Source: Gloeopeniophorella convolvens
Lineage: Eukaryota; Basidiomycota; Agaricomycetes; Russulales
Direction: 5' to 3'
Assembly (NCBI GenBank): GCA_022496205.1
Contig: WTXD01000019.1
Location: 62,001-126,000, forward strand
Length of the DNA: 64,000 nt
Part shown: in pieces, positions 1,296 through 63,024 of the stretch
Numbering within the stretch: the first letter of the stretch is position 1
Layout of the letters: each line of letters begins with the position of its first letter
Position numbers and translations under genes: made by a program
The notes under the pieces: model-generated
Database searches by the model: none
What the model saw: only the letters and a program-made list of their open reading frames with translations
Told to the model about the DNA's origin: nothing

Positions 1296-4200
1296 CTAAT
1301 CGAGCGCCCCGTTCCCATTACAGTAATCCACATTCCCCTTGGCCGGGTTGCCCGCCCACTACACCTCAAGCATCAGCGCCGTGTACACACGCAAAGACAA
1401 AAGGGAAAGAGGCTCACAGTAGGGAATGGCCGTGAGACACCAGACGCGCCGAACACGGCGAAGGAGAGGATGAAAATCATGACTTGTGCGCCGCCATCGA
1501 GCGCGCCACCGAGGATGTAGTTGTACTTGCGGAACCACCCGGGGTGGTAGCGGCGCAGCCACAGCTGCGACACGAGGCCGACGATGATGGACGATGTGAT
1601 GGTGGAGTTGACACCAATATACTGCACGTGCCGAAGCATCAGCCAGAGGCTCACAGTGCATGCAAAGCGAAGCTTACCATCCATGCGGCGTACTGGTAGA
1701 TGACGGGCAGCAATACCTGGTCGACCCTGATGGGTCCGATGTACGGCCAGCGCTACAAGATGGAACTGTCAACATCTCCTTCATGGCGCGGTGTGGATCT
1801 ATACACCTACCTTGTACACGAGCCAGTGGCCGGCGGTTGCGACAAAGCCGATGAAGATACCCATGGGAATGATGAAATAGGGACCGTCGGGGCCGTACAG
1901 CTGCTTCGCCAGCGACCAGGTGATAGCATCGCTGTTGAGGGACTGCACAGTCTGACCGCTCCAGATGTTGTTGCCGTTAGGGTCGAGGAGGAGGTCGCGT
2001 TGCGAGCTGGTAATCGCGATCATGATCACTACAAAAGATCAATCAGCTCCGTCTGCAACCACAAGCGCGCGGAATCCGTACCGTAGTTGACAATGGCGCC
2101 TGCAGGCCGGGGTTCGAATTAAGCTTCCAGACCGACTCACGATGCTCGTCGGAACGCACCAATGATTGTGCCCCAGAGCTGAGTCATAAACAACGCGCGT
2201 GGCGGAATCTTCGAAGCATATTCAGTAATCTAAGCTATGTCGTAACAATTAGAGAGATGCACCTTCAGATACTGGCCCATCTTAAGATCACCAGCAAGCC
2301 CGATCGACGTCGATACGACATCGTGGCTCCACATGCTGAACTGGAAGTCGGATGAGAACGTGAAGTTTTTCAACCGAGCGGCGCTTAACACTTACGTAAA
2401 GGTTCGCTACGGGCCTCCCAGGGTTGATGGCACCCGCAATCATCTTGAATAGCTGGTTGGTAGCGATACCGTTGCCCATGCGTGCATATAGCAGTGTCGA
2501 GAATGGTGTAATGATCGCACCACAGATAAGCGCAAAAATGTACGACCAGACCGGCAATGTCGTATCGCCCTTGAGCACACTGATAAGACCTGTGCGGACC
2601 AGAAGCGTCAGGTACTCCATGAATGGTGCTGAGTATATGCAAAACCCACCGGCGAAGAATGCCAAGAGCAGAAGGATGACATACCACCACCATGGCGCCT
2701 CCTTGTACTTCTGAAGGGCAATCCAGTGGGGATCAGGCTGTGTCTTGTCGCGTGCGTGCTTGAAAGAGGTGACGACGTAGGGACCCCAGAAGAATATGCA
2801 GTGGGCGATGAGACCACCAATGGCAAGAGAACCCATCAAGCTGGCCCACGCGTTGGAGCCAGTGAGGGCGGGGAGGCCGATCTCGTCAAGGGCAGTATGG
2901 TTGAGGTGGAAGTCGGACCCAGTAAAGACGGCCGATTGGTGGTAGATCGAGCCATTGGACGAGAAGAGCGATGATGAGAGCATCGGGAATGCCTTCGACT
3001 ACAGGGAGAGAATCGAATCAGGAAAGGAACTCGCGGCGCGCGGACTGCCGCACTCACATTCCACGTGTTCGAGTAGTAGATAGCCAAAATAGCGATATAG
3101 CAGAAAAAGAATCCTACCCAGGAATTAGCCTGCTGGATCAGAGGGAAACTCATGTACCTATTATACAACGTAAGTTTGAATGCACGGCACGGATGTCGCG
3201 GAAAGGTCGGACGTACGCAGATCCAATGTACTGCCAGTCAAAGCTCAAACTGAGTAAACCAAGGCCCTCGTTTCCATCTGCACCTCCGAATATATTGGTG
3301 AATGCATCTTGCACACTGGGCTTTGTGTGCTGTGAGGCCAGGCAGAAGATGCTAAAGCCGTTGAGGAGTGGGAAGATGTACGACGGGATTATCTCCCAGA
3401 TGAACATGCCCGCAAACGCCAGCCAGAAAAGGCGCACGCGCTTGGAGTTTGCAGAGGTGTCAAAGTGTAATGCTGACACTGGTGTCAGTCATGCCCTAAA
3501 TTTAGAAGCGAGGTGAGCTACCTTGGAAAATGGAGACTGTGGGAAGGTTCTAAAGTCTCGTAAGTTTGCGGATCAATAGCACAACCACATGATACTCACC
3601 GCCCAGTAGACCATCTCACTAGGGTAGACGGTCAGAGGCCGGAGGAGACCCACGATCCCATATCCGAAGACCGCTGTCGAGAACGTCGCAAGTACAGCGG
3701 TGGTCGCGCGAACTTGTGTGTCGTAGTATAGCTGAGGTTTCTGTCAGGCGCCACCGTGGGGCGACAATCACGGAGTGTCACATACCCGCTGGACGGCGAA
3801 GTTGAGGACCGATGAGCTGCCGTATGAAGCGCTGGACGCAACAATGGTAGAGATGACGTGCTGCATTCGCACATTGCGGCTTGAGGGCTCCGTCCGAGTC
3901 CGGAGATAAAGGACTCACCTCCTTAAGCCTGAACTCTCCGGGGTTGATGAAATCGAGCGTCGGTCCGAGCCATTGGTACCGCGTGTTTTCTACCCAAGAA
4001 CGCTTCGGGAAGAATGTCGACCAGGATGTACCAAACGAGTAGATGATAAGGAGCAAGAACACCGTAGAGATCGTCTCCTCAATAGGCTTGAAAATATAGA
4101 TCTGCGAGTAACAGTATGAGCAACAGCACCACGAAGGGACCACAAAGGCAGACCTGATATAACGCAGCACCCAACCCACCAAACATAGTCCCCAAGACAA

Positions 4201-4471
4201 TGGAACGGAAGGTGAACGGTGGGTCGCCATCGTCACGAAGGTCGACAAGGTGGTGGGAGACGTCCTTCCCGGTGGTGATGACGGGTTCGCCGTTCACGTA
4301 GACCGGCTTCTCGTACACCTCGCCATCGTACCCATCAGAGGAGGGCCGCTCCGAATCGAGTGCTGCTTCCTTCTCGAGCGAAGGCTCTTTTTCGTATGCT
4401 GATTTATCGCCATACGCTGCCTTCTCGTCGAGCCCAGGAAGACTCGGGAGGTTGTCCTGCAGTTCGGCCAT
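1296..4471 (-). CDS. OPT-family oligopeptide transporter, copy 1
   Basis: Predicted polytopic plasma-membrane transporter of about 800 residues that would import small oligopeptides or related compounds with protons. The ATG is at 4471-4469 and the stop at 1298-1296. It is split by many short introns at the same places as copy 2. Family marks are the acidic soluble N-terminus leading into DDGDPPFTFRSIVLGTMFGG, many hydrophobic helices, and the OPT signature around KIPPR in the C-terminal half, followed by ALFMTQLWGTIIG. All exons that I followed are open, so the gene looks intact. Differences from copy 2 are scattered conservative changes (for example GSDFHLNHTALDEIG against RPDFHLNHTALSEVG). 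Substrate cannot be read from the sequence; glutathione or siderophore-type substrates are possible within the superfamily. Confidence 0.93.
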
Positions 4472-5612
4472 GGCTAAAGCTTGGTGCTTGGCTCTGTGAG
4501 CTGAAGGTAAGACTGCGAGCGCAGGGCTGCCGCTGGGGAGGCTAGAGGCGTTGAACCAAAGGAGCGCACTTGGGACACGAGACGAGCGAGTCTTTTTGTT
4601 GTATCCCTCCTGCTGACTATCACGAAAGAAGTGGGGCTACTTACGCCATCTGTCGGGGCCATGTGGGCACTGCCTAGTCCAAGAGGTGCATCGGGAAGGG
4701 TTCCACCTGGGTCCACATGGGTGCGGACCTGTTTGGACTCTTCGAATGGTTCAGATCCGGCGTTCTGCGCCGTTCCATGTCCGCGAAAGAAGCGAATCAA
4801 AGACGATAAGGTAGTGTCCCTACCAGAGAAATCCTATTTGACAGTCCGAAGGAGGAGCGACGATGTCCGAGCAGCACGAAGCCAGTCATGCAGCAAGTCA
4901 CTAGTCACACGTTGAGCTACTGGCGATGTCGAGTCCTGCCTCGGTGACGGACGATAAGCCATGGGAACGTCACCCTCCGAGGCGGGTAAGTAGCAGCAGC
5001 GACAGCTCGGCCTCGGCGCTGACAAATTGGCAGCCCACGGCAGGCCGGGGCGGGGCTCAGCTGAGGGCGCGGAGGAATGGCGGCATTTTCTTCATAGCGA
5101 AAAATAAATTAGTGCATCGAAGGGGCTTCACACGTTAAGACTAAAAGATTATGCGTTAGCGACCATGCGTAAATGTTCAACGCTCAAGCGCTCAACATTC
5201 GAGCGAGGAGGCTCGCGGCCAGGAACTAACCAGATCCGATTTTCCAAGGGCTTCTGAAGCACTTGAGGATTCAGATGCACTGACAGTACAGGGTTAGCGC
5301 TGGTCAGCGTCACCCCACCAGCTCCAATTGTTGGGAGAAGTCGGAGAATCATCGCAGCTATAAGCATCCATGGGTGCGGTCGCTCCAGACTGGTAAACAA
5401 TCAAAACAACCTGGTTAGCTCTCGACGTCAAGCCAGGGCCGCGACAATCCAGCATAGTATGCCTTCGTTGATTAGCCGGACATGGCCCGGAGATCAGTGG
5501 TAGTGGACCGTGGTGGAAACGGACAAAAAAGACCTGGTGGCTATGCTACGACGGACCAGGGCGGACCGGACTGGAGCGAGTCAATTCGCGGCCGGAGCCC
5601 GGACTCTTGATC

Positions 5613-7420
5613 GCCGTCTCCTTCCTGTTTCACACATGTCTGGCTCTGGTTGGCACCTGCACACGGGCTTCAGCGTTTTGAAAGTACGATACATACTCTG
5701 ATTGCAACGCCACACGACTTTCTCATTCCGGGGGCGTGATCAAGAGCGCTGCGGCAAACGATTCCTTGCTCCGACGAGCGAGACCGGTGACCGGTGACCG
5801 GTGACCGGTGAACGTTTGAACGCTTATCACGAATCATGGACGCGACGAACCAAGACGAGATATGAGAACCTCGTAAGTCTACGCGCCGCCTCCCAACGCT
5901 ACCTCTAAAGCCGATACCACCCCAGCCCCGTTGACATCTGAACCTGGTAGCACTGTTCCTAAGCACACCCCAAAACTCATGTGGGTAGTCATACGTCAGG
6001 CATTCGCAAACGTCCTTGTGACCTCTTTCCAGCCGAGAACAATACTGGTTTCTCTGCCTCGCAGAGCGTCCAGTGAGGGGCGCTGGCATCCCGATTAGAC
6101 AACTATACCTAGCTCAAGGCTGTTCTTTGCGTGAGGCCCTGCCTTTCCGCATAGCTTTTGGCCCAGACCCCAGAAACCGTGCATAGCTGACCCGGCTCTT
6201 TCGCCGAGTAACGCACAGGACCATATGGCCCAACCATATCCATGGTCTCTCTTGCTTACTGACATACGGTTCCTATGGCCAATGATCAGTGCTCAGCACG
6301 ATGCTCTGGTTCTAAGGCGATGAGCCCCGCTTCATGACAGCCCATCAATTGTGGAGGTCGATTAGGGTTGACACGTGTCGTTCTCCATCCAGAAGCTCCA
6401 TCCCACGACAGACCCGTGAACGGCAGATCAGGGCGGCGCTCTCGAGAATCATCACACCACTCAGTTCCTACGCCCTCCCACTGCCACATCCTTCATCCCT
6501 ACAACTCCTGGAGACCGTCTAACGTGGGCAGCACCAAGTGGTGGAGCGACTGCGGAAGTTTAGGGAAATCGTGCGAGGGGAGGCAGGAAAAGTGACTGTA
6601 TCTGAAGCTAGGTTAAGGAAGTAAGTACAGTTCAGTTCCTTCTGAACCTCACTGAGCGCCTGACGTGCGCTTACTGTGCTCCCGTGTTAATACCAAGAAT
6701 AACATCGACGTCTGGTCTACTCATTGTCCAGGACTTCCAACTGCACTATGTATCATATATAGGGGCTCCAGAACTTCTAGTTTCTGAGCGCGTAGAGCAT
6801 AGCCTTGACCTCATTCACTCCTGGAGGGTTTTATGCGAGTTGGGAGTTGTCGTGCCGGAAGAAGACGTAGACAGAGATTGGAATGTAGGGAGTGGGGTAG
6901 AACGATGAGAGCGTGAGCGCGAGATGAGCAAGAAGTCGGAACGGCGCGAGTGCGGGAACGCGAAATCGATATCAGATACTTACTACTTATCCGTCGCGTC
7001 GCGGAACGACTGTCTTCCGCGATCGGATGAGGTCAGCAACGGAGACTACACTGTAAGTCAGATACATAACAAAACCTGCGCGTTGCACGCGCAGCGCACG
7101 CGACATCCCTACACTCCGCTGTGCGCTGCCCACCTTCTCGTTCCAGCCGTATCGATCGCTCTCGATCTATGTCACTGCTTTCTGCGCCCAACCAGGGTGC
7201 TTTCAGGATGCCCTCTAGGTTCTCGGCGGGTCGAGGAAGACCTTTCCTCATTTCACGCATGACCTGCGCCTGGTCATGATGCATGATACCCCGGTCTACG
7301 CTTCGGTATCGACACCCTCCACGTCATATGCTCTGAGTTTTTTCCATGATGCACCCACGTCTGTGTTCGGGCTGGTTGGTAATTGGTGCCTATTGAATGG
7401 CCGAACAGCCCACCTTGTCG
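5613..7420. other. Intergenic stretch with short repeats
   Basis: No gene is supported over these 1.8 kb. Bases 5671-5771 are the second copy of the 517-617 repeat. Bases 5782-5811 are a short tandem repeat of the 7-mer gaccggt. On the minus strand, 6826-6970 holds an open hydrophobic stretch (reading ...LALTLSSFYPTPYIPISVYV...) that ends in a stop at 6834, which might be the last exon of a decayed membrane-protein gene. I could not connect it to other exons. Confidence 0.4.
5782..5811. repeat. Heptamer tandem repeat (gaccggt)n
   Basis: About four perfect units of a 7-base repeat. The palindromic accggt core also recurs as one or two units at 11546-11565, 37733-37745, 43412-43428 and 51012-51024. 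Confidence 0.85.
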
Positions 7421-47105: not shown

Positions 47106-48467
47106 CTAGGGTGCTCCAGGTTCAATCTCACCCAAGAGCATAGTGCCATCTTTACTGGCGGTCAGGACTGGGCGCCTCAATTAGCCCCATCTCGTTGCCA
47201 AAAAAAAAAAACTTACTGATAGGCTCCTTCGGATGGAAGTCTACGGCTGTGACAGTCCCCTTGTGTCCGGGAAGCTAAAAGTATTCAAGGTCAAGCGGGC
47301 CGAGCCGAGTGGGGAAAGAACATGCCTTGTATAAGATTTTGGAACTTTCCACATCCCATATAGTGACCGTCCGATCTGCACCGCCGACCGCAACACGACG
47401 CCCACCATCTTCTCGACTCCATGCAGCTTTCAGGAGTGTGTTCTCGAAGCCGGCAGGCGCGCCAGTCAGCACGCGGTGAACACGATTGGGGGAGGGTGCA
47501 AACGGTCTGATATCGTGGATGATGGCCTGCGATGAGAACGAGGGCGAAAGAAGGTAAGAACCATTTGGGGAGATCGCGAGACTAGTTGGCGTGTCGACGT
47601 GACCAGAGAGAAAGGAAACTTCCTCTTGCTTCCGCAGGTCCAGAACCTAGATGCAACATGTGCAGCGCAATAAGATGTACGGAAATGGCACGCACATGAA
47701 CTCCGTTGTCGAGTGCGCCGGCGTAGATGCTCGCACCATCGGCGCTCCACGCCACGCAAGTGACCGGACAGCCGACCTCGAATACCGCCACGGGATCCTT
47801 TCCCGCCTCGTCTCCTCCTTCCCACACGCGCACGGTACCATCGTCGCTCGCAGTGGCAATTAGCTCGACGCCAGCACCACCTGCGAGTGTCCGGTCGAGC
47901 GAGTTGATTATCTCGCGGTGGGCACGGAGCTTGCGTACACGTTGACCCGTCGTCAGATCCGTATAGGCGAGTGTGTGATCCGCTGAGACACTGTACAGAA
48001 GTGGGGAGAATAGTGACCACTGAAGGTCAAGCACGGGTGCTTTGTGAATTGTCGAGAGGAGACCGTAGTTAGTATTTGGAGGGTATGTTTTCCATAAAGC
48101 TGATAGCTTTGTCGATAAGGTGAGGAGAGAGAGGTCGATTTGTACGCACAGATGCCACGGTCTGCCGAACATGCTGCAATGTTCTGCCCAGTAGGATCGA
48201 ACCTGCAACTCAATATCTCTGCCTGCCGAGGGTTCGTTTTCCAGAAACCCTGACGGGAATGCAACAACAACTCACAGAGTGGGCCCCCGAGAGGCTGACT
48301 ATTGGAGCTTCGAGATTACTAGTTCGTTTCACGGAACGAATGAGTGCTTTCTGTCTTTCATCGTTGGATGAAGAGATAGCCAATTGCTGGTTGTTGGACT
48401 CCGGCTCTGATGAACGTGCCCGCTTGATTAGAGTACCTTCCTCTTGCGGCGCCGCACGTTTTGACAT
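47106..48467 (-). CDS. U5 snRNP 40 kDa WD40 protein (Cwf17/SNRNP40)
   Basis: Six exons (48276-48467, 48150-48222, 47696-48099, 47326-47646, 47217-47274, 47106-47167) give 369 residues, typical for this beta-propeller. It is a spliceosome component that contacts Prp8. WD40 units are visible: LSCRFDPTGQNIAACSADRGI, VLDLQWSLFSPLLYSVSADHTL, ELIATASDDGTVRVWEGG, RVAVGGADRTVTIWDVES, and the final LPGHKGTVTAVDFHPKEPI with SKDGTMLLGEIEP. The tail motif LLGEIEP is characteristic of Cwf17/SNRNP40. The intron 47275-47325 has a GC donor (aag|gcatgt), and the last intron contains a run of about 12 T. It shares a 247-base bidirectional promoter with RRP7. Confidence 0.93.
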
Positions 48468-48714: not shown

Positions 48715-49802
48715 ATGCCGTCAAAGACTACGTCTGGCGCCTTCGCGAGCTTTTCCCCCCTGCCAGTTCAATACGGCCCCGACTCGCAGCACATCATCTA
48801 TGTTCGTGTCCACGTTGGCTCGTCTTCCAACGGCAGCAAGGCGAAGATAGCATGGCCAGAAGACCGGACACTCTTTATGGTGAATGTTCCTCCAGACGCT
48901 ACAGAACGCGAGATCGTGTTACTCTTCAAGTCGTGTGGGACGGTAGAGGCGGTGGTCTTTGACACAGATAATTTGGGGCTGGATGGTGACGAAGAAAGCG
49001 ACGCAGACGTGGACGCAAACTCTGGCGCGGATGGAAGCGTAGCATCCACTTCACAATCTCCCTCGCACAAAAAACGGAAGCTCGCTGCGGCTATGCAGGC
49101 TCTCCACCCCGGCACCCCATCGGCCCACCAAAAGTTACACGGCTTCCTGTCACTCCCCTCCGCTCACTTCGGAGAACTGGTCACACTGCCCATGTCCTGT
49201 TCTTGGATGCATCGTCTTGCACTCGTGCTCTAGCCCTGGCGCGTCCAGAGCCGAGCCCCGGCCATGGCCCATAGGCGGAGACAGGGAACGCCCCCGTGGT
49301 CTCGCACATTATATTGCGCAGTACGAGTCTACGCGGCCTCCCCTCGAGGCGGTACGCGCACACGCCGACTCTGCCATTGCGCGTTTCGACTTCGATCTAG
49401 CGGCGCGTAAAGCTGCCTTGCGGCGCGAGTCGAAGTACAAGAAGGGCGAAGCACTCGTGGATGAAGATGGCTTTACCCTTGTCGTACGTGGTGGGGCGTA
49501 TGGTCAGGCCGTGGGAGGCGGTGTTGGCGTGGCAAGCCGCAGATTCATGGATGAACATGTCAAGGGTGCGCATGGGAAAGACGCCACGACGAAGCGGAAG
49601 AGGCACAAAGAGGGCAAGGAGAAGACCGCTTTCTACGCATTCCAGATCCACGAGAAGAAGCGAAATGGTGCGTGACTGTCTCCGCTTCGCATACCATACT
49701 TATGAGCCGTGGCTAGCCATCCTTGAACTGAAAAGGAAATGGGAACAGGACAAGGCTGCAGTTGAAAAGTTAAAGTCGTCGCGGAAGTTCAAGCCGTATT
49801 AA
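48715..49802 (+). CDS. RRP7: Ribosomal RNA-processing protein 7 (RRP7), apparent frameshifts
   Basis: Acts in early 40S subunit assembly in the nucleolus (UtpC-linked). The N-terminus has an RRM-like part: HIIYVRVHVG, then RTLFMVNVPPDATEREIVLLFKSCGTVEAVVF. The C-terminus shows the family's tail, from FDFDLAARKAALRRE through DEDGFTLVVRGG to a coiled LELKRKWEQDKAAVEKLKSSRKFKPY after one intron (49672 to about 49721). Between them the conserved segment LPVTPLRSLRRTGHTAHVL, then FLDASSCTRAL, is present but in a different frame. Two single bases seem to be missing, one around 49085-49130 and one around 49235-49265, both in C-rich runs. Because RRP7 is essential in yeast, sequencing or assembly error is the likeliest cause. 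Confidence 0.88.
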
Positions 49803-50184: not shown

Positions 50185-50493
50185 TCACAGCTTAACCTTA
50201 CCATTTGATCTGAGGTATTGTAGAGCCTGCACAGAGGCATCCCGCTTCGCGGAACCCCTAGAGGTGCCGTGTCCAACGCCGATGTCCACACCTCTGACTA
50301 TACCATCGACATCAACATTCAGCTGTGACCCGAAATGAGGATGCGCTTTACATGTAGCTGTGACGTGGAAGGTCGTGGAGTGTTCGGGACCTGTCTTTGT
50401 GACCTTCCACAACAACTCTTGGGCTAGGTTACCACCTGGCTGCCCTTGCAGGAAGTTGTTGAGATCGCGAACGGGGTCTTCCATAGTGAACAT
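50185..50493 (-). CDS. Single-dsRBD small protein, array copy 1
   Basis: Two exons (50352-50493 and 50185-50297). Starting at the second ATG (50484, MEDPVRDLNNFLQ) it is 81 residues; the first ATG adds MFT. Almost the whole protein is one double-stranded-RNA-binding domain. Helix 1 is VRDLNNFLQ, beta strands include LLWKVTKTGPEHSTTFHVTATF with the GPEH loop-2 motif, and GVDIGVGHGTSRGSAKRDASVQALQYLRSNG is the loop plus helix 2. The lysine-rich KKxAK is reduced to RGSAK. The phase-1 intron falls in the codon for the Phe before RG, the same place as in the other copies. Without splicing the reading frame also stays open, which hides the intron. Confidence 0.85.
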   Translation of the reverse strand: MFTMEDPVRDLNNFLQGQPGGNLAQELLWKVTKTGPEHSTTFHVTATCKAHPHFGSQLNVDVDGIVRGVDIGVGHGTSRGSAKRDASVQALQYLRSNGKVKL

Positions 50494-51231
50494 CCTGCGA
50501 GATTGCGAGAAAGTTGCTGGCCAGGCTCACGAATGGGATAAGGGGGAGTACCAACCGTCGAGGGAAACGCAGAGAGGTCAAGGAAGGCGAATGGGATAAT
50601 AGTGTTCGATGGCGCCAGCATTATATCTATGAGACGCGCGCTTCTGAGTAGGAAACGTTTTAGCCCGTGTAGTCGGGTCCTGGGAGGTCTGGTTGTCTGG
50701 TTGTCTAGGCACGTCGCGCCACGTAGCAAGATCGAGGGTATCGCGGAGTGTGCGACAGTCGCTTCCTTCGGACCTTATCATCGAGGTTAGCACAAGGGAG
50801 GGGCCCAGATCACATCGTCGAGGGTTCCTCCGCATGTTGACCGGGGCGCGGGCGTTTGCGCCGGGATAAGGTCTTGCCAGTGAGGATTTCTTAGAACATT
50901 TTTGGAAGCCCTACATCTGGTGATTCTCGGAATGTGCACGGGCAACTGGCCAGGTGGCTACAGCATGCCCACGCCCCTAACGCTGTTAGACAGGCGGCAA
51001 GATCGAAATCGTGACCGGTGACCGCTCTCAGTGCTAGTGGGATGGTACCCTCAGATCCTAAGAGGTTTACACAGCGAGGTTGGTAGCATATTCAGAAAGA
51101 AGTACGGGAATTGCCGCTCCTGTAGATCGGCTACTACAAGGTATGTGAGCGTCTAAACACCATGTAGCCATGCCACAATTGAAACGCTGAACGATTAAGT
51201 TCTTCTTTGACATCATCAAAAATGTCAGAGA
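50494..51231. other. dsRBD array intergenic DNA
   Basis: Upstream of copy 1 on the minus strand, with an AT-rich gatataat at about 50616-50626 as possible promoter. 51012-51024 carries a tgaccggtgaccg repeat unit. No gene. Confidence 0.35.
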
Positions 51232-51573
51232 CTACTGGCCCGGGAGGTCGTTATCGCGGAGGAACTGCAGCACCTGCTCGGCCGCTGCGCGCTTAGCAGC
51301 ACCCTTCGAGAGGCCTGTCCCCGTCCCCAATGACATGTCGCGGACTGTGGCAAGGCGACTAATACGTGTCAAGCTCTGGGGCATCGTGATCACCGACGTC
51401 TGTATATGGCGGTATAGGTCGCTTGGTGATTCGGCCCTTGTTAAGTTACAATACAGCTGAGATGCTCGACGACACCTCTAGCTTGCAGGAAGTTATTGAG
51501 TTCGACAAACTGTCGACTGAGCGTTAGAGGCAGCCGAATATGAGAGTTCACAAGACGTGCGCGTATCAGACAT
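51232..51573 (-). pseudogene. Single-dsRBD gene, array copy 2 (broken)
   Basis: Same layout as copies 3 and 4: ATGTCTG at 51573, a second exon with VELNNFLQARGVVEHLS, QGPNHQATYTAIY, and a third exon SLGTGTGLSKGAAKRAAAEQVLQFLRDNDLPGQ ending at 51232. Two defects: the first intron begins with at instead of gt (its counterpart in copy 3 is gtgcgc), and a TAA lies in frame just before QGPN, near 51430. Helix 2 is well preserved, so decay seems recent, unless the stop is a sequencing error. Confidence 0.75.
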
Positions 51574-53445
51574 TGATTCGCTGTGCGGGTTCTTGCCGTC
51601 GACCGATAACAGTGCAGCCGTTATATATACTCCTGGACGTGAGCTGCTTTCTTATCCACAGATTCTGAGATATGGAGCGCACGTATGCATGCACTACATC
51701 CTAGGACTCCAATGGTCCAAGCGCCCCGTAGACTTGGCCGCCACAGCTCAGAGTTAATGCCGCCGATAAACTCAGCGTGTCATACAGCTCTGCCTGAGGG
51801 TAAGCTGATGATGTATATTCGTCCTGAAAGCGCCAGCCGTTGTGTACGGCTACCAATCCTGGAAAGAACGACTTCTGAAGTACAGTCTGACAGCCAGAGC
51901 GTTAGTAGAACGGGCATTGGCCGGGAAAAGACTGACGTAGGGACACAGCCGGACTCTCAAAGCAACCTCAAGACGTGAGCCACTTCCTGGGGCAAGGCGA
52001 ATGAAGCGCCCTCCGGTGTCACCTAGTAGTGGCCGCAGAGGAGGAATAAGCCGCGGAATATTGATGCAGTGGAAAGCAGTGACCGGAATCGGAAATATTG
52101 CATGATCAACCTGTGAGGTGAGGCTAATTCGAGATGAAGTTCAGCTGGCCAGTACAGTACGTTGTGGGCAGCGCATGCGTGAGCTGGGGTTTCAGCGTTT
52201 ACTAGGAAGTTGTGCTGTAGAGTGACCTCCGCGGGAAGTAAAACGCAAGTACAGTCTACCAAGACCGGATCACCGCAAATCTAGCGCGTGAGGCCTTCGT
52301 GAAAAAAAAAGACCTATCTGGCGCAATTTCCTCGAATTCAGAGCACCGTAGCAGTAGTGCCGGTGAGGTGAGGCACTGAAGGTGAGGTGAGCGTCAACAT
52401 TAAGTAATTTGCTGGCTTCAACTTGGGCAGACTCGGGCTCCAGACTCCAGTTGCCGCAGCTCACGTGAGCATGAGGTCCAACTCCGACGCCGATTATCTC
52501 CGACTCTATTGAACCTTGAAGCTGGGACGTTGCGCACCGTATGGACACGACAACCGCCAATGTCGGTGACCGACCTGTGACTTTCAAGATTTAAACTTGG
52601 CTCAATGATTCTCTGCATGAAACAAATAACTGACAACATCCTTTCGTTCTACAGGACCTGCACATCGAAATCTTCTGATGCCCAGGCCGTGCAGGGAAAC
52701 GAATAAACAGATGCGCATGTGCGGACTGGCGCGGCCATCCCTCTACACCCAAACCAGTGCGAACCACACAGACACACATGCAAAAGAAGACGCGAATAAA
52801 GAGGCACTTGCTGCCACTTGGCAACAACGCTGGGACCCATTAACCCGCCACAGCCAGGCCTACTCCTGAGCACGAGTAGTCTCCGGTGCCCTATCTCTTA
52901 GTTCGACATCGTCGATTTATGGCCATGCATGGGAATTGCTGGTTTTTGAATGCATCTGTGCACGACAGGAAGTTGCATACTACAAATATTCTCCCGAGAC
53001 ACTGCGCACAACTCACGTAGTACTAGCGCCGCATCCTAGTCGCACATTTGCACCCCGTAACCAAGCACGGTGGTCAGCGCCAATTGCTTCAGTATATTCG
53101 CCTTTGGCTCGTGCACTAAGCCTAGAATCTGACGAAGCAACGTAGGGATGGCGCGGGATACATGTAGAATTTCCTCACTGCTCTTTGCGTAGCACGTCGG
53201 ACAGGTCCGCTAGGTAGTACGTGAGTGCGTCCCCAGGATCCAACACAGGTCATTGCTCGTCGCATGCGACGGAGCATTCACAGGGATGGTCTGACTCGGG
53301 ATGGTGCGTTGGGGCGGATGTTCGTTGGTTGTCGGAAGAAGGATCTATTTCGGGGATAAGAAAACACCTGGCAAGCACTTTACAAGGACAATGGTGTAGG
53401 AGAACAGCAATGCTCTCGCGGCATCGCCGAGGCTACAATATGGTT
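51574..53445. other. dsRBD array spacer between copies 2 and 3
   Basis: The first part is duplicated DNA: the block near 51985-52020 (ggcaaggcga..gaagcgccctcc) lies about 415 bases upstream of copy 2, and its counterpart near 54212 lies the same distance upstream of copy 3. No further gene is supported. Confidence 0.5.
51622..51630 (-). promoter_or_regulatory. TATA box of dsRBD copy 2
   Basis: gtatatataa on the minus strand about 50 bases upstream of the ATG, at the same distance as in copies 3 and 4. Confidence 0.5.
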
Positions 53446-53796
53446 TCACTGGCCAGAAAAGCCGTAGACCTTGAAGTACTCCAGCGCCTGCTCGGCCGCT
53501 GCACGCTTCGCCTCACCCTTACTACGACCCGTACCCGTGCCCACGGAAATACCGCGATCTAGACCAACATAATTAACTCTTGAGGTGGTCCACAAAATCC
53601 AAAGATTTACTGACAATTGTACGTGACGGTGTGGATAGCATTGTTGTTGGGTCCTTGTTGGCTATTAGTGAAGCTCAGGTGCTGGACGACACCCTCGGCT
53701 TGGAGGAGGTTGTTGAGTTCGACGGCGGCGTCTACATAGCGTTAGAGATGGGTCGCACATGCATGAGAGCGCATGGGATGATTGCGCACCAGACAT
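53446..53796 (-). CDS. Single-dsRBD small protein, array copy 3
   Basis: Three exons (53790-53796, 53615-53731, 53446-53558) encode 78 residues. The first exon carries only ATGTCTG. The protein is one dsRBD: helix 1 VELNNLLQAEGVVQHLS, loop 2 QQGPNNNAIHTVTY, then YRGISVGTGTGRSKGEAKRAAAEQALEYFKVYGFSGQ. It keeps the best RNA-contact helix of the array (SKGEAKRAAAEQAL, canonical KKxAK). No signal peptide or other domain. Function unknown; dsRNA binding or dimerisation with other dsRBD proteins such as RNAi factors is inferred from the fold only. Confidence 0.87.
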
Positions 53797-53850
53797 CGTA
53801 GAAAACAAGACACAAGTCACTGCTATCTGGAGATAGTAATCACCCAACGC

Positions 53851-53857
53851 TTATATA
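53851..53857 (-). promoter_or_regulatory. TATA box of dsRBD copy 3
   Basis: tatataa on the minus strand about 55 bases upstream of the ATG at 53796. Confidence 0.55.
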
Positions 53858-55624
53858 TCTTCTGCTCTGTGAGCTGCTTCGTCTATACGCCATAAAACGT
53901 AGGATGAATGTCCAAGACTACATCCCGGTGGTCGAGGTCCCATGCGAGCTGAGCCGGAGAAAGGATCCACGACGACCCCAGCATTGCATACAGCTTCGAA
54001 CTTAGGCACACCGATGGAAATCGCCGGGGCGACGGTGCCAGCGGTGATGCATCCTAGTCAAGACTAGAGAGAAGAAGCCTCCCTCAAATACATCCGACGA
54101 TACCGGACGCCTCAACAGCCAGATTGTGCATAGCGGTAGCCGAGAAGGGCAAGAAGCCAAAAACAAAACCGCACTCTTAGCGAGATTTCGCGCTGTAAGC
54201 CACTCCCAAGGGCAAGGCGATGGAAGCGCCCTCCAGTGAGCTGGTGATCGCAGAGAGCTGGGGCCGCAAATAATATCACGCGGAAAGCGCTGTGCACACA
54301 TCCAGGAAAATTCCTGCCTTGACCGATCATTAGGAGGTGGTTGGCGAACAGACTGCGGCTGACCAGCACCTACCACTGCAGAAGAGAAGGAGGCCCCTCG
54401 TATGCTTGTAAGCTTGCTACGCTAGTGCAGAGAACCCGTGCAGCAAGAGTCATGATCCAGTCCAGATGTGAACATCCAAAGCTCCATGGGCGGCTCGACC
54501 GGTTGGCGGACATGGTACTTAGTATTTGATGGAAGCTCGCGTCACCACCATGCACCAACAATTGCGTGTCGGTTGATTTCTATGTATGTCCGACACCGGC
54601 CGCTTCCGTGCACGGGGGGTGGGCTAGGAGACGGAGCGCTGTTGCGCGCAACGGTGAGCGTCCAAACCGCCCTTCAAGTTGCTTTATTCGTCCACACGTC
54701 ACCGCACAGAGTCCCTGGGAACATCGTGGTTAGTCGGGGAAATGCACATTGTGTCCGGCTGCAATTCACAATGCTTTGCACCTCGTATCATGAGACAACT
54801 AGGATAGGAGTCAACAACGAACGGCGCCCGTGTTTCGCTGTCCGCCCGCCATGCTTCGGCCCCGATATCATGTCCTCTACACATTGGTTGCTGGGCTAGC
54901 GTGGCAGATCAAGCCTCTGGGAAGTAGCAAGAACCTGCTCCACAGGCGCTTCCGACTGGCACCGGCACCTGGCACGTACTCTACACCTAATGGGGCCGTA
55001 GACGGTTCAGAATAAACTTTCTGCGTAATGTAGAACTACTGCTTTTGAAAAATAACAACCTATAAGTTCACTATCCCGTGTAGTCTGACCAGAAATCTGC
55101 CCCTACGCGCGCGGCAGCGCCCGATCCTGGGAACCGGATGCGTCCTCCGCAAAGGTTCTACAGCCACTGCCGCGGAGCGCACGGTGGAGGGTAGAGCCCC
55201 GTAAACACGATACGCGTACTATTTAGCCATACCAGTCATAAAGCCGTAATTCGAGAACCCGCGTTTCTACCAATGCTTACCAACCAGATTGGTAGAGGTA
55301 TGATGTAGCGCTTCAGAATCCACACTTTCGCTGTTCTCGGAATTTCTCTGGGTCTGCAGACAGCACGCTGGAGTACAGGTGCAGTCACATGTGCGGGAAA
55401 ATCAAGGGATCTTGGAAACCACATAGAAGATCTCGGACGCTTAGCCGCTGACATCACAGATCAACAAAGTAAAATTGGGGATCACGTTCAACAGACAGCA
55501 TTATTCGGAGAATTCCGCTCGTGCAGATCGTCCAAAATACTAGAGACGAGGGCATGCGCAAGCGTCGTACGAGCATGACGTAGTGGAAGGCCGGAAATCT
55601 CGCAGCCTAGTGGAGGTTGTGGAT
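53858..55624. other. dsRBD array spacer between copies 3 and 4
   Basis: Contains the duplicated upstream block of copy 3 (about 53890-54330). The remainder has no supported gene. Confidence 0.45.
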
Positions 55625-55966
55625 TCACTGGCCCGAAATGCCGTTCGTCCTGAAATACTCCAACGCCTGGCTGGCTGCCGCTTGCTTGGCCAAACCAATA
55701 GAAAGGCCTGTACCAGTCCCTATGTCCACACCGAGATCTGTCAAAAGCTGTCAACGGGGATTCATACTAGTATTACTGAACTACACCGACATCTGTACGT
55801 GATATGATGGGTTGCTTGATTATTTTGCCCAACCTGCTGATGAGTATTGCTTAGAAGGTGGCTGGCATGATGCGCTTGCAGCAGGTTGTTGAGTTGGACG
55901 ACAGCGTCTACGCAGTGGTAAATGCATGTGTCAGTGAGAGCGTAGGGATTGAGGCGCACCAGCCAT
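55625..55966 (-). CDS. Single-dsRBD small protein, array copy 4
   Basis: Three exons (55960-55966, 55791-55907, 55625-55737), identical in size to those of copy 3 (7, 117, 113), encode 78 residues. dsRBD parts: VVQLNNLLQAHHASHLLS, QQVGQNNQATHHITY, then YLGVDIGTGTGLSIGLAKQAAASQALEYFRTNGISGQ. The lysine cluster of helix 2 is reduced (SIGLAK), and loop 2 has lost the GP-H pattern, so direct dsRNA binding may be weak. The frame is open and the splice sites are canonical. Confidence 0.85.
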
Positions 55967-56014
55967 TGCTATGGACGAGGATGGATGCTATAGCCAGTCA
56001 ATGGCCCTCTATCT

Positions 56015-56022
56015 CTTAAATA
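56015..56022 (-). promoter_or_regulatory. TATA-like box of dsRBD copy 4
   Basis: tatttaag on the minus strand about 50 bases upstream of the ATG at 55966. Confidence 0.45.
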
Positions 56023-57220
56023 CCTCAGACGACAGGCTGTCTCATCATCCAGATAACCTGAAATGCGGGGGCGTGTGTAGGCCCTACATCCCAACAATGC
56101 GATATTTGGGTGGACGTGTCAGGTATACAGTCGCTGGAGCGTAGGAACAGACGCGACTGGTGGCACCGGCGCGGCGTACAGCTGCAAGCTGGGACGCGTC
56201 ATTGGAGCACATCTGTTCCAAAGGCGCCGAGCGTAACACAGTTCACCCGTACCGGGGGAGAAAAGGTTCCCAAGTACAGTCCGACAACCAGAGCGCCTCA
56301 GCGAATCAAGCGTTCCTGCGGTAACAAGGGGCACGAGAACCAGCAAGGCTGTTCAGCGCGGCCACTAAGGGCCCGTGGCCATTTCTTGGGACCCCGGAAA
56401 AGCTGAGCGCGCCATCCGGTACCGGGTACCAGTGGCCGCGGGGCATGGGAATCTCGGATCGAGTGGTGTGGAGATTGCCGTGCGCCTAGAGATATTTGCA
56501 AGCATAGTGTGAGCGCGGGTCCGGCACCAGTATGAAACTTGCATCAACTATTAGACATACACTTTGAGAGTTTGTCTTCCAGCGAGCACCACACAGGCAG
56601 CCAAAAGGTTTGCAAGCGACCCAAGAAGTTCCTACAGGCGCTGAACCGTGCGACAGACCGGACGGCCCAGCCTGCGGGAGCAAAGTCTTCAAGATGAAGC
56701 CAGGCGGATATTGGCACTGACCGCCGGCAGCTCCTTCAAGTACTGACTTCACACCTCGAATGAGGTCCGTAAGCGCCATTGAATGGCACGCAAGTCCGAC
56801 GATGAAGGAGCGCCTTGATATGGACTCGCGCTCGCCCCCGGGTACTGATGTGGGGGGGGGGGGGTGCCATTGAGGCACGGAGCAAGCACTGGAGCGCGCA
56901 TGGACGAGTATCACGCTGACTCGGACCTTCAATATTGAATCGCCGTCGCCGCGACTGTGCGATCTCTAAGTTCGACCGCCAGATCGGCCAGAAAGGGGCC
57001 CTGCCAGATCGGGGGTAACAAAGATGGGAGAATAACGTCTATATTCACAGAATACAATCGAAGAGGCTCATGTAGGGACAGTAAAGGGAAGCCTGGACAG
57101 CAAGTAGAAGGAAAGCCACATATGTAATCAAATTGTCTAGTTATTGGTAGTAAGGGCAGAGGATGTTATTGCATCAGAGGGGCTTTCATAGCTCCTTGGA
57201 CACGGCATAAAAGACCGCCA
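56023..57220. other. dsRBD array spacer between copies 4 and 5
   Basis: The segment near 56420-56445 (gcgccatccggt...agtggccgcgg) matches upstream DNA of copy 2 (about 52007) at the corresponding distance, showing that the flank was duplicated too. A run of G occurs at about 56853-56862. No gene supported. Confidence 0.45.
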
Positions 57221-57556
57221 CTAGCCACTAGTGGTGCGTAGATATTGCAATGCCTGTGCGGCAGCGGCTCTCTTGGCATTGCCAATGGAGACACCTTGTC
57301 CACTGCCAATTGGAGTACCTCGGACTACGGCGTCTCAGTGCACAGCGGAGGATACAGCTAGCGAAACTCACACTTAGCGACAGCGCGATGGGTAACCTGG
57401 TCTTGAGGCCCGCTTTGGGACAAATCCCACGACAACAGGGGGCTGATATTTCCCGAAGGGTGGCCTTGCAGCCAATTATTGAGGTCACGAACGGGATCAG
57501 CTAGGCAGAGAGTCAGAACTCAGAGCTTTAGAAGAGTCGAACAGGTACCGACCCAT
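57221..57556 (-). CDS. Single-dsRBD small protein, array copy 5
   Basis: Three exons (57553-57556, 57372-57500, 57221-57324) encode 78 residues. The first exon holds just ATGG. It resembles copy 1 most (DPVRDLNNWLQGHPSGN against DPVRDLNNFLQGQPGGN), then SQSGPQDQVTHRAVAKF and RGTPIGSGQGVSIGNAKRAAAAQALQYLRTTSG. The intron in the Phe codon is again phase 1. Helix 2 reads SIGNAKRAAAAQAL, so the first lysine is replaced. A minus-strand tataaa at about 57670-57675 lies about 115 bases upstream. Confidence 0.85.
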
Positions 57557-59616: not shown

Positions 59617-59779
59617 GGTGGTTAGTGGTTACCAAGCTTGCCAATGGGAGCGATCACTGGGGTGGAAGCAACTGCGGCGGTGCTACTTGGCGCTCGGACG
59701 AAGATATCAGATGCGTCCGGGACATAACCTGATATAACGGCGACACCGTAATGTGTATAGCGGATGCAATGGTAAACAT

Positions 59780-59861
59780 GGCTACCTGGCGCAATGGTAG
59801 CGCGTTTGGCTTCGATCGCCGACGGCACCAAAAGGTTGCAGGTTCGAGTCCTGCGGTGGTC
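59780..59861 (+). tRNA. tRNA-Arg (anticodon TCG) with 11-nt intron
   Basis: Acceptor stem ggctacc/ggtggtc with two G-U pairs, D stem gcgc/gcgc, anticodon stem tttgg/ccaaa, T arm gcagg-ttcgagt-cctgc. The anticodon loop cttcga is followed by an 11-base insert before the last loop base, the normal place for a nuclear tRNA intron. A run of six T follows as Pol III terminator. Confidence 0.82.
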
Positions 59862-60152
59862 ATTTTTTAGTTACCACCAACTCGACCGTATTCTTGTCGA
59901 TCCTTGTCCCCCATTTTGCCGCGCTTGCACAGCCACGTACGGCTTACAATTGCAAAGCACACGAATATGATTTGTTGTCCGAAAAAGCGTTGAAGTGAGG
60001 TTGGGATCTTCAGCACGTGACGTCGAGTCGCGTCGCGTCCGAGTCGGCTGTGCCACAGTCGCAGGGCTCCCCCGCTACGACTCCCACCTCAGGCTCGCGT
60101 GCGACGAACGGCACTTCCTTGGTACAGACTTCAGCCTATCAAGAGAAAAGAT

Positions 60153-62423: not shown

Positions 62424-62768
62424 GTAGTTGTAGTTGTTCATATAAGTTATGCTTGTAGCCTTGCAGAGCGCTAGCTTGTCGCAGAGGGTTTGAATCCGCG
62501 TCTGATGTATGTTGTTCTCGGAAGACGAGAGGAAAACGCCCAATATAAGCAGTCTCTAACCCGTAAATAGCACTGGCCATGCGCAAAGCCGGCACCTACA
62601 CCCGGCGGTTTGATGCATGGGCAATAGCACGCCGTTGTTCTTACGTGCAACGTACGTTCCCGGGATGTGGTGCTGCGGGGAACAGCGCCACGGTGCCATT
62701 GTTGCCTTGGCAGAACATATACGGAATAAGTTGGCACGTGGCAGGGGTGTAGAAGGAAAAAAAGAAAT

Positions 62769-62849
62769 GACCACCGCAGGACTCGAACCTGCAGCCTTTT
62801 GGTAACGTGGCGATCGAAGCCAAACGCGCTACCATTGCGCCAGGTAGCC
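62769..62849 (-). tRNA. tRNA-Arg (anticodon TCG) with 10-nt intron
   Basis: Reverse-strand copy of the tRNA at 59780: the mature parts are the same except for one base beside the T stem (aaggc for aaggt). The insert in the anticodon loop differs (10 bases tcgccacgtt instead of 11). A run of seven T downstream on the minus strand serves as terminator. Confidence 0.82.
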
Positions 62850-63024
62850 ATAAGAAAGGAGCAAGGGCTGGTCGTCTCCGACTCGGACGGTGGCACGGCC
62901 ACACTTGGGGCCAGAGATCGCTCTACTCGCAGTATTGCAGCCCGTCCTACTGACCTTCTACTATCTCTCTACTAGTTCAAGTCGTGGTCGCCAGAGAAAT
63001 CGTCCGGCGGAACTGTCTTTGTCA

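Follow-up and report, generated by a model that had tools for sequence, protein, structure and literature searches.

Small single-domain dsRBD genes in Gloeopeniophorella convolvens and a related domain at the end of an NLR-like locus

Where does a gene come from, and what might it do, when its whole product is one double-stranded RNA-binding domain (dsRBD)? The question is raised by a 64,000-nucleotide stretch of Gloeopeniophorella convolvens DNA (hereafter the window), which covers positions 62001-126000 of contig WTXD01000019.1 (C101 below; 484,862 bases) in the 36.7-Mb assembly GCA_022496205.1. The species is a wood-dwelling member of the Russulales for which NCBI taxonomy gives no family placement. 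At 50185-57556 of the window, the minus strand carries an array of five copies (c1 to c5), each consisting of a single dsRBD. We found that the array brings together old paralogues with relatives in other genera, and that a domain of the same family also ends a locus resembling fungal nucleotide oligomerization domain (NOD)-like receptors (NLRs) on the same contig.

Copies in the array and their domain

The original prediction of five minus-strand dsRBD copies was borne out, and complete spliced proteins could be derived from four of them. Copy c1 (50185-50484; exons 50484-50352 and 50297-50185, separated by a 54-nt intron) gives a protein of 81 residues, while c3 (53446-53796; exons 53796-53790, 53731-53615 and 53558-53446), c4 (55625-55966; exons 55966-55960, 55907-55791 and 55737-55625) and c5 (57221-57556; exons 57556-57553, 57500-57372 and 57324-57221) give 78 residues each. 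The exon plan of the family in G. convolvens consists of a short start exon, an exon for α1-β1-β2 and an exon for β3-α2. The exception among the stand-alone copies is c1, which starts within the second of these and has no separate start exon. The three-exon model of c3 agrees with a deposited protein, BC834DRAFT_1041924, at every one of its 78 residues, and another deposited protein, BC834DRAFT_192783, overlaps c1 with termini that are not the same. Among the matches listed for the c1 and c3 searches and the best 120 of the 188 profile matches described below, deposited models were found for these two of the five window copies and none for c4 or c5.

Both the domain identity and the stand-alone size that had been predicted are upheld by profile and model. 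Against the Pfam dsrm profile (PF00035, curated cut-off 23 bits), c1, c3, c4 and c5 score 36.4, 40.8, 23.2 and 26.5 bits, respectively; all are above the cut-off, with c4 as the weakest and a borderline match (margin 0.2 bits). The AlphaFold model of c3 shows the dsRBD fold with a predicted local distance difference test (pLDDT) score of 87.5. Chance similarity or misreading of the domains was considered as well and is ruled out by the profile, the structure model, the deposited protein and the orthologues. Proteins such as TRBP, PACT, Loquacious/R2D2 and plant DRB/HYL1 have two or three dsRBDs each and no enzyme domain. They share the lack of an enzyme domain with the family described here, and several of their solved chains are among its best profile and structure matches, the other best matches being RNase III, PKR and mitoribosomal proteins. 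In contrast to the two or more dsRBDs of the TRBP/Loqs/DRB type, a single dsRBD fills the whole 78-81-residue protein here, and its KKxAK motif is eroded; the likeness is one of profile and structure.

The remaining copy, c2 (51232-51573; exon-2-like 51509-51398 and exon-3-like 51344-51232), is where the claim of five genes of 78-81 residues gives way. On the window haplotype, exon 2 is interrupted by an in-frame TAA and the expected first donor GT is replaced by AT; the C-terminal part of the copy still scores 24.6 bits with dsrm. The array in the window therefore comprises four genes and one disrupted allele. The reading frame of c2 is open on contig C71, which is 99.0% identical to the window across 11.5 kb and is taken to be the other haplotype of the array. 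When the two haplotypes were compared over 64 intervals of 200 bases (inserted stretches left out), two intervals fell below 95%, both over c2 at 51334-51733, with 86-90% identity versus 95-100% in the other 62. Gene conversion was tried as the source of this peak by comparing c2 from C71 and from C101 with c3 and c4, and gave nothing clear. The coding differences between haplotypes (non-synonymous/synonymous) are 0/1 in c3, 3/0 in c4 and 2/2 in c5. Either relaxed or diversifying selection would be compatible with these differences, which are small numbers from one individual and prove neither.

Two insertions were also noted on C71 (L047). The first, of 4.6 kb (1343-5986), lies between c2 and c3, is absent from the window at 52261-52276 and has a junction of about 16 bases that is repeated; it is probably a mobile element. 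The second, of 695 bases (6268-6962), has inverted-repeat ends beside TA and is absent from the window at about 52541; it resembles a small Tc1/mariner-type element.

The broken c2 raises the question of whether more of the array is decaying, with c2-c4 and the domains at the end of the NLR-like loci as pseudogenes in progress and c1 and c5 alone functional. The 3/0 pattern of c4 points the same way, as does the lack of a deposited model for c4, and likewise for c5, among the matches listed. We nevertheless regard general decay as very improbable, since c3 and c5 do not share the pattern of c4, c2 is open on C71, and c3 and c4 have maintained intact reading frames and splice sites while their proteins are 59% identical, c3 having a deposited model.

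Relatives and origin of the array

Part of the array was formed by local duplication. Copies c2, c3 and c4 recur about every 2.2 kb, as had been stated. The same duplicated flank had been placed about 400 bases upstream of each, which is correct for c2 and c3, where decayed pieces at 51975-52018 and 54195-54238, respectively, are the best match with 84% identity over 44 nt (E value 1.5e-8). Upstream of c4, however, the remnant (56272-56295; 92% identical to 51878-51901) is shorter, at 24 nt, and closer to the gene. Whole-flank identity equals 52% for c2-c3, 50% for c2-c4 and 45% for c3-c4, as against maxima of 46%, 44% and 44% in a control of 10 shuffles per pair, so the c3-c4 likeness is marginal. 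The 2.2-kb recurrence together with the decayed flanks indicates that c2-c4 were copied as whole units long ago, whereas the proposed whole-unit duplication does not extend to the rest of the array.

Homologues exist outside the G. convolvens assembly. Protein searches, which return only proteins of 0.55-1.75 times the query length, yielded 41 proteins with c1 and only c3 itself with c3. A search with a 15-sequence profile gave 188 matches, and the best 120 of these were examined. Among them, 45 carry an organism name, namely two window proteins and 43 relatives from Russula, Lactarius, Lactifluus and Multifurca. The length is 71-97 residues in 37 of the 43 relatives, and the NCBI label of each is hypothetical protein. 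Small single-dsRBD proteins are thus a standing family in these fungi. In five entries of 103-114 residues (P0010, P0013, P0016, P0024 and P0030) the frame continues across the site of the middle intron, from which we infer intron-unaware gene calling. One metagenomic entry of 146 residues (P0107) has apparent parts of two family dsRBDs in one frame.

A tree was built from 52 rows, comprising the 43 named relatives and nine G. convolvens domains, over 84 columns; with so few columns many forks are weak (22 of 49 are starred). Three placements of window copies stand out. One clade of 12 rows (support 100/99) holds c1 together with sequences from Russula, Lactarius, Lactifluus and Multifurca. 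A second, of 11 rows (96/93), contains c5 and members from Russula, Lactifluus and Lactarius. The C71 allele of c2 forms a Gloeopeniophorella-only clade with c3 and c4 (98/86). The array as a whole had been proposed to be a lineage-specific expansion. This idea fails, as c1 and c5 belong to older clades and a single clade of all five copies was rejected by the approximately unbiased (AU) test (p-AU 0.0004). A grouping of c2-c5 without c1 was rejected as well (p-AU 0.0103); the five-copy grouping was taken from the original prediction, and the c2-c5 grouping was chosen after inspection of the tree. Taken together, the tree and these rejections imply that the array consists of at least three old paralogues joined with one local triplication.

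Similar clusters are found in other species. In Lactarius tabidus, the consecutive tags V8E53_013623, 013624 and 013625 fall into three separate clades. Among the best 120 of the 188 matches, several members were also found on contigs of one size, each inferred to be a single contig: four in Lactifluus subvellereus (contig of 167,923), three each in Russula earlei (131,317), R. dissimulans (401,243) and R. vinacea (562,310), and two each in L. akahatsu (202,273), R. brevipes (383,953) and R. compacta (127,560). Given this similar mix of paralogues, the cluster itself, besides its genes, seems to be older than the genera Russula, Lactarius and Lactifluus.

The family could also consist of ordinary small RNA-binding proteins with a housekeeping task in rRNA processing, translation or editing-like control, with the tandem copies as redundant paralogues. 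Within its clade, c1 shares 64-76% identity with the other 11 rows, a fairly steady rate of change across four genera that is consistent with this, and an RRP7-like rRNA-processing gene (49043-49672; 50.9 bits) adjoins the array. On the other hand, the paralogues are far apart (c1 and c3 are 38% identical) and one allele is broken. Moreover, c2 is the most divergent spot between the haplotypes in the stretch compared, which is atypical of housekeeping genes. We consider a housekeeping role unlikely for the family.

An NLR-like locus with the same domain

Searches of the same genome with c4, c1 and an NLR-tail sequence as queries revealed further copies. The genes s6 and s7, both stand-alone, are located at C101:161.3-162.8 kb, 35 kb beyond the window end. 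Another dsRBD, at C101:287.3-287.6 kb, makes up the exon pair at the C-terminal end of an NPHP3_N(NACHT)-ankyrin locus, and a larger dsRBD-bearing frame of the family thus exists in this NLR-like ankyrin gene, represented on contigs C101 and C174. The two collinear versions span C101:286.5-292.5 kb and C174:2062-6500 (L054, L053). On C101, a 511-residue ankyrin open frame runs directly into the α1-β1-β2 exon, which is followed by the phase-1 intron typical of the family and the β3-α2 exon. NPHP3_N (PF24883) was detected about 4 kb upstream on the same strand, with 75.4 bits over a cut-off of 24.8. Ankyrin repeats (PF12796) score 185.2 and 385.5 bits on two C101 open reading frames (ORFs) and 548.7 bits on C174. 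The stretch at C101:287-292 kb therefore has both a NACHT/NPHP3_N domain and C-terminal repeats, in that order on one strand, as in fungal NLRs, which combine such a domain with ankyrin, WD40 or TPR repeats; unlike them, it terminates in a dsRBD. Other dsrm matches at L001 1501-1683 and L004 1501-1641 lie within frames of 927 and 419 residues and, judged by eye, are outside the small family.

Contig C174 may be the C101 locus on the other haplotype, or else a duplicate of recent origin. Its flanking pieces are 88-95% identical to C101, and since other haplotype pairs (C71, C85) are nearer 99%, its status as an allele calls for caution. C174 has one ankyrin frame of 1,213 residues with the dsRBD exon at its end, and since no methionine separates the last repeat from this domain, the dsRBD cannot start alone there.

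C174 follows the C101 locus as far as position 2314 and once more from 1651 onward. Its segments 2347-2001 and 1815-1666 are 78% and 75% identical, respectively, to the s7 locus. At the level of the dsRBD, the C101 and C174 tails are 54% identical, versus 71% for the C174 tail and s7. In the tree, s6, s7 and both NLR tails form one clade (97/97), within which s7 groups with the C174 tail (99/85). A clade of the two NLR tails is absent from the best tree, yet it is not rejected (p-AU 0.196). The simplest reading of the mosaic would be an old ectopic conversion tract that swapped a receptor dsRBD with a stand-alone one, in either direction.

Possible roles of the family

What could unite small dsRBD proteins and an NLR-like gene with the same domain? 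The original suggestion was that the small proteins might be sensors of double-stranded RNA (dsRNA), competitors or partners of larger dsRBD proteins. We favour, at a probability of about 0.38, the interpretation that they act as accessory dsRBDs in a dsRNA-related defence, alongside an NLR that took up the domain; this function is proposed from sequence. Double-stranded RNA is characteristic of many fungal viruses, and a dsRBD tail on an immune-receptor-like gene may hint at a role in dsRNA sensing. The 13 Piwi matches in the G. convolvens genome make it likely that RNA silencing is available. Under such a scheme, the small proteins would serve RNA silencing and the NLR would carry an integrated copy of the domain. 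A constitutive job would fall to the conserved c1 type, which would either bind dsRNA weakly and cooperatively or pair, dsRBD to dsRBD, with a larger protein such as Dicer or the NLR tail. The faster-changing c2-c5, s6 and s7 could be decoys or modulators, and the NLR tail a bait that turns interference with the small proteins, or dsRNA itself, into a signal.

The residues of the RNA-binding surface have a bearing on this. Canonical type A dsRBDs have KKxAK at the start of α2 (region 3), which is eroded in the family: across the 52 domains compared, the first position of the motif is basic in 25, the second in none (glycine in 41) and the third in all 52. The missing second lysine would suit dsRBDs that have lost RNA binding and act as dimerisation modules, like the third dsRBD of TRBP/PACT, with one conserved non-immune partner and with the NLR fusion as an accident of ectopic recombination. 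The c4 copy, with its narrow Pfam margin and with the proline of the β1-β2 loop lost on one haplotype, would agree with such a role, as would the apparent damage to the NLR copies on both C101 and C174. However, the loop glycine (51 of 52) and proline (49 of 52) are retained along with the third basic residue, and these would be needless for a pure protein binder. We judge this protein-protein role to be somewhat unlikely.

Several observations weigh against the defence interpretation that we favour. The eroded KKxAK speaks against every copy being a strong dsRNA binder; the Drosha dsRBD is described as lacking the motif and not binding dsRNA (PMC5549741). A Pfam scan of 20 window ORFs, picked by length and place from 158 of at least 110 residues, detected no NACHT, Dicer or Argonaute domain. 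Neither NLR copy is demonstrably intact. On C101, one methionine located after the last repeat and before the dsRBD makes a separate start possible, and the ankyrin part is spread over ORFs in different frames, where two changes look like frame breaks; a third, nearer NACHT, can be an intron. The C174 frame has no NPHP3_N match, a NACHT-bearing stretch of about 1,095 bases being missing. Furthermore, the NLR-dsRBD fusion was seen in one species only, G. convolvens. With at least 150 NPHP3_N matches, its genome has a very large NLR repertoire, so that one odd NLR could be an accident.

A bolder form of the defence interpretation is conceivable. It would be an immune system of Russulaceae-type fungi based on dsRNA recognition, in which NLRs have an exchangeable dsRBD sensor end that is refreshed by ectopic recombination with free-standing single-dsRBD clusters, the latter acting as decoys, competitors or guarded partners. 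The tails would then differ between haplotypes, as would befit a locus for nonself recognition or antiviral defence. We find this version decidedly unlikely as it stands.

The scanned window ORFs gave Pfam matches to WD40 repeats (47585-48271), RRP7, P450, OPT (twice) and a 2OG-Fe(II) oxygenase, together with sub-threshold matches to a kinase and Tim17, and 12 of the 20 had no Pfam match at an E value of 0.01. WD40 repeats occur in fungal NLRs too. A search of PHROGs returned a single weak match, to an entry of unknown function. An inverted repeat of 91 bases with 94.5% identity was noted at 59778-59868 and 62762-62851.

Loqs2 of Aedes mosquitoes is a lineage-restricted, fast-evolving paralogue that arose by duplication of a single dsRBD and is tied to the control of virus infection (PMC10809485). 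The G. convolvens family resembles it in its duplicated single dsRBDs; in contrast, Loqs2 is an insect protein with a known parent, loqs, whereas the fungal family predates one genus and has no parent identified. Another likeness is with integrated-decoy NLRs in plants and Sordariales (PMC12258605). As in those receptors, the locus here has an extra C-terminal domain resembling free-standing proteins encoded elsewhere in the genome; it differs in that the extra domain is a dsRBD and the decoy role putative. Zinc finger, SPRY and kinase are named there as the leading ones among 185 non-canonical extra domains, and a dsRBD is possible in the full list (PMC12258605). The main text of that paper does not mention dsRNA, dsRBD or RNA-binding. 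The main texts of two fungal NLR surveys (PMC9815663 and PMC4986451) contain no mention of dsRNA, double-stranded RNA, dsrm or RNA-binding, nor does the main text of PMC12881547 mention dsRNA or RNA-binding. No report of a fungal dsRBD-NLR or of this small dsRBD family was recognised among the titles retrieved from the open-access literature, most subscription journals lying outside that coverage.

The combination of free-standing dsRBDs and an NLR-like tail of the same family provides a testable candidate for a dsRNA-sensing route in fungi. It also offers an example of a domain being exchanged between a receptor and stand-alone members of the family. Should the immune reading prove wrong, there would remain a family of very small proteins with an RNA-binding fold, common to several genera.

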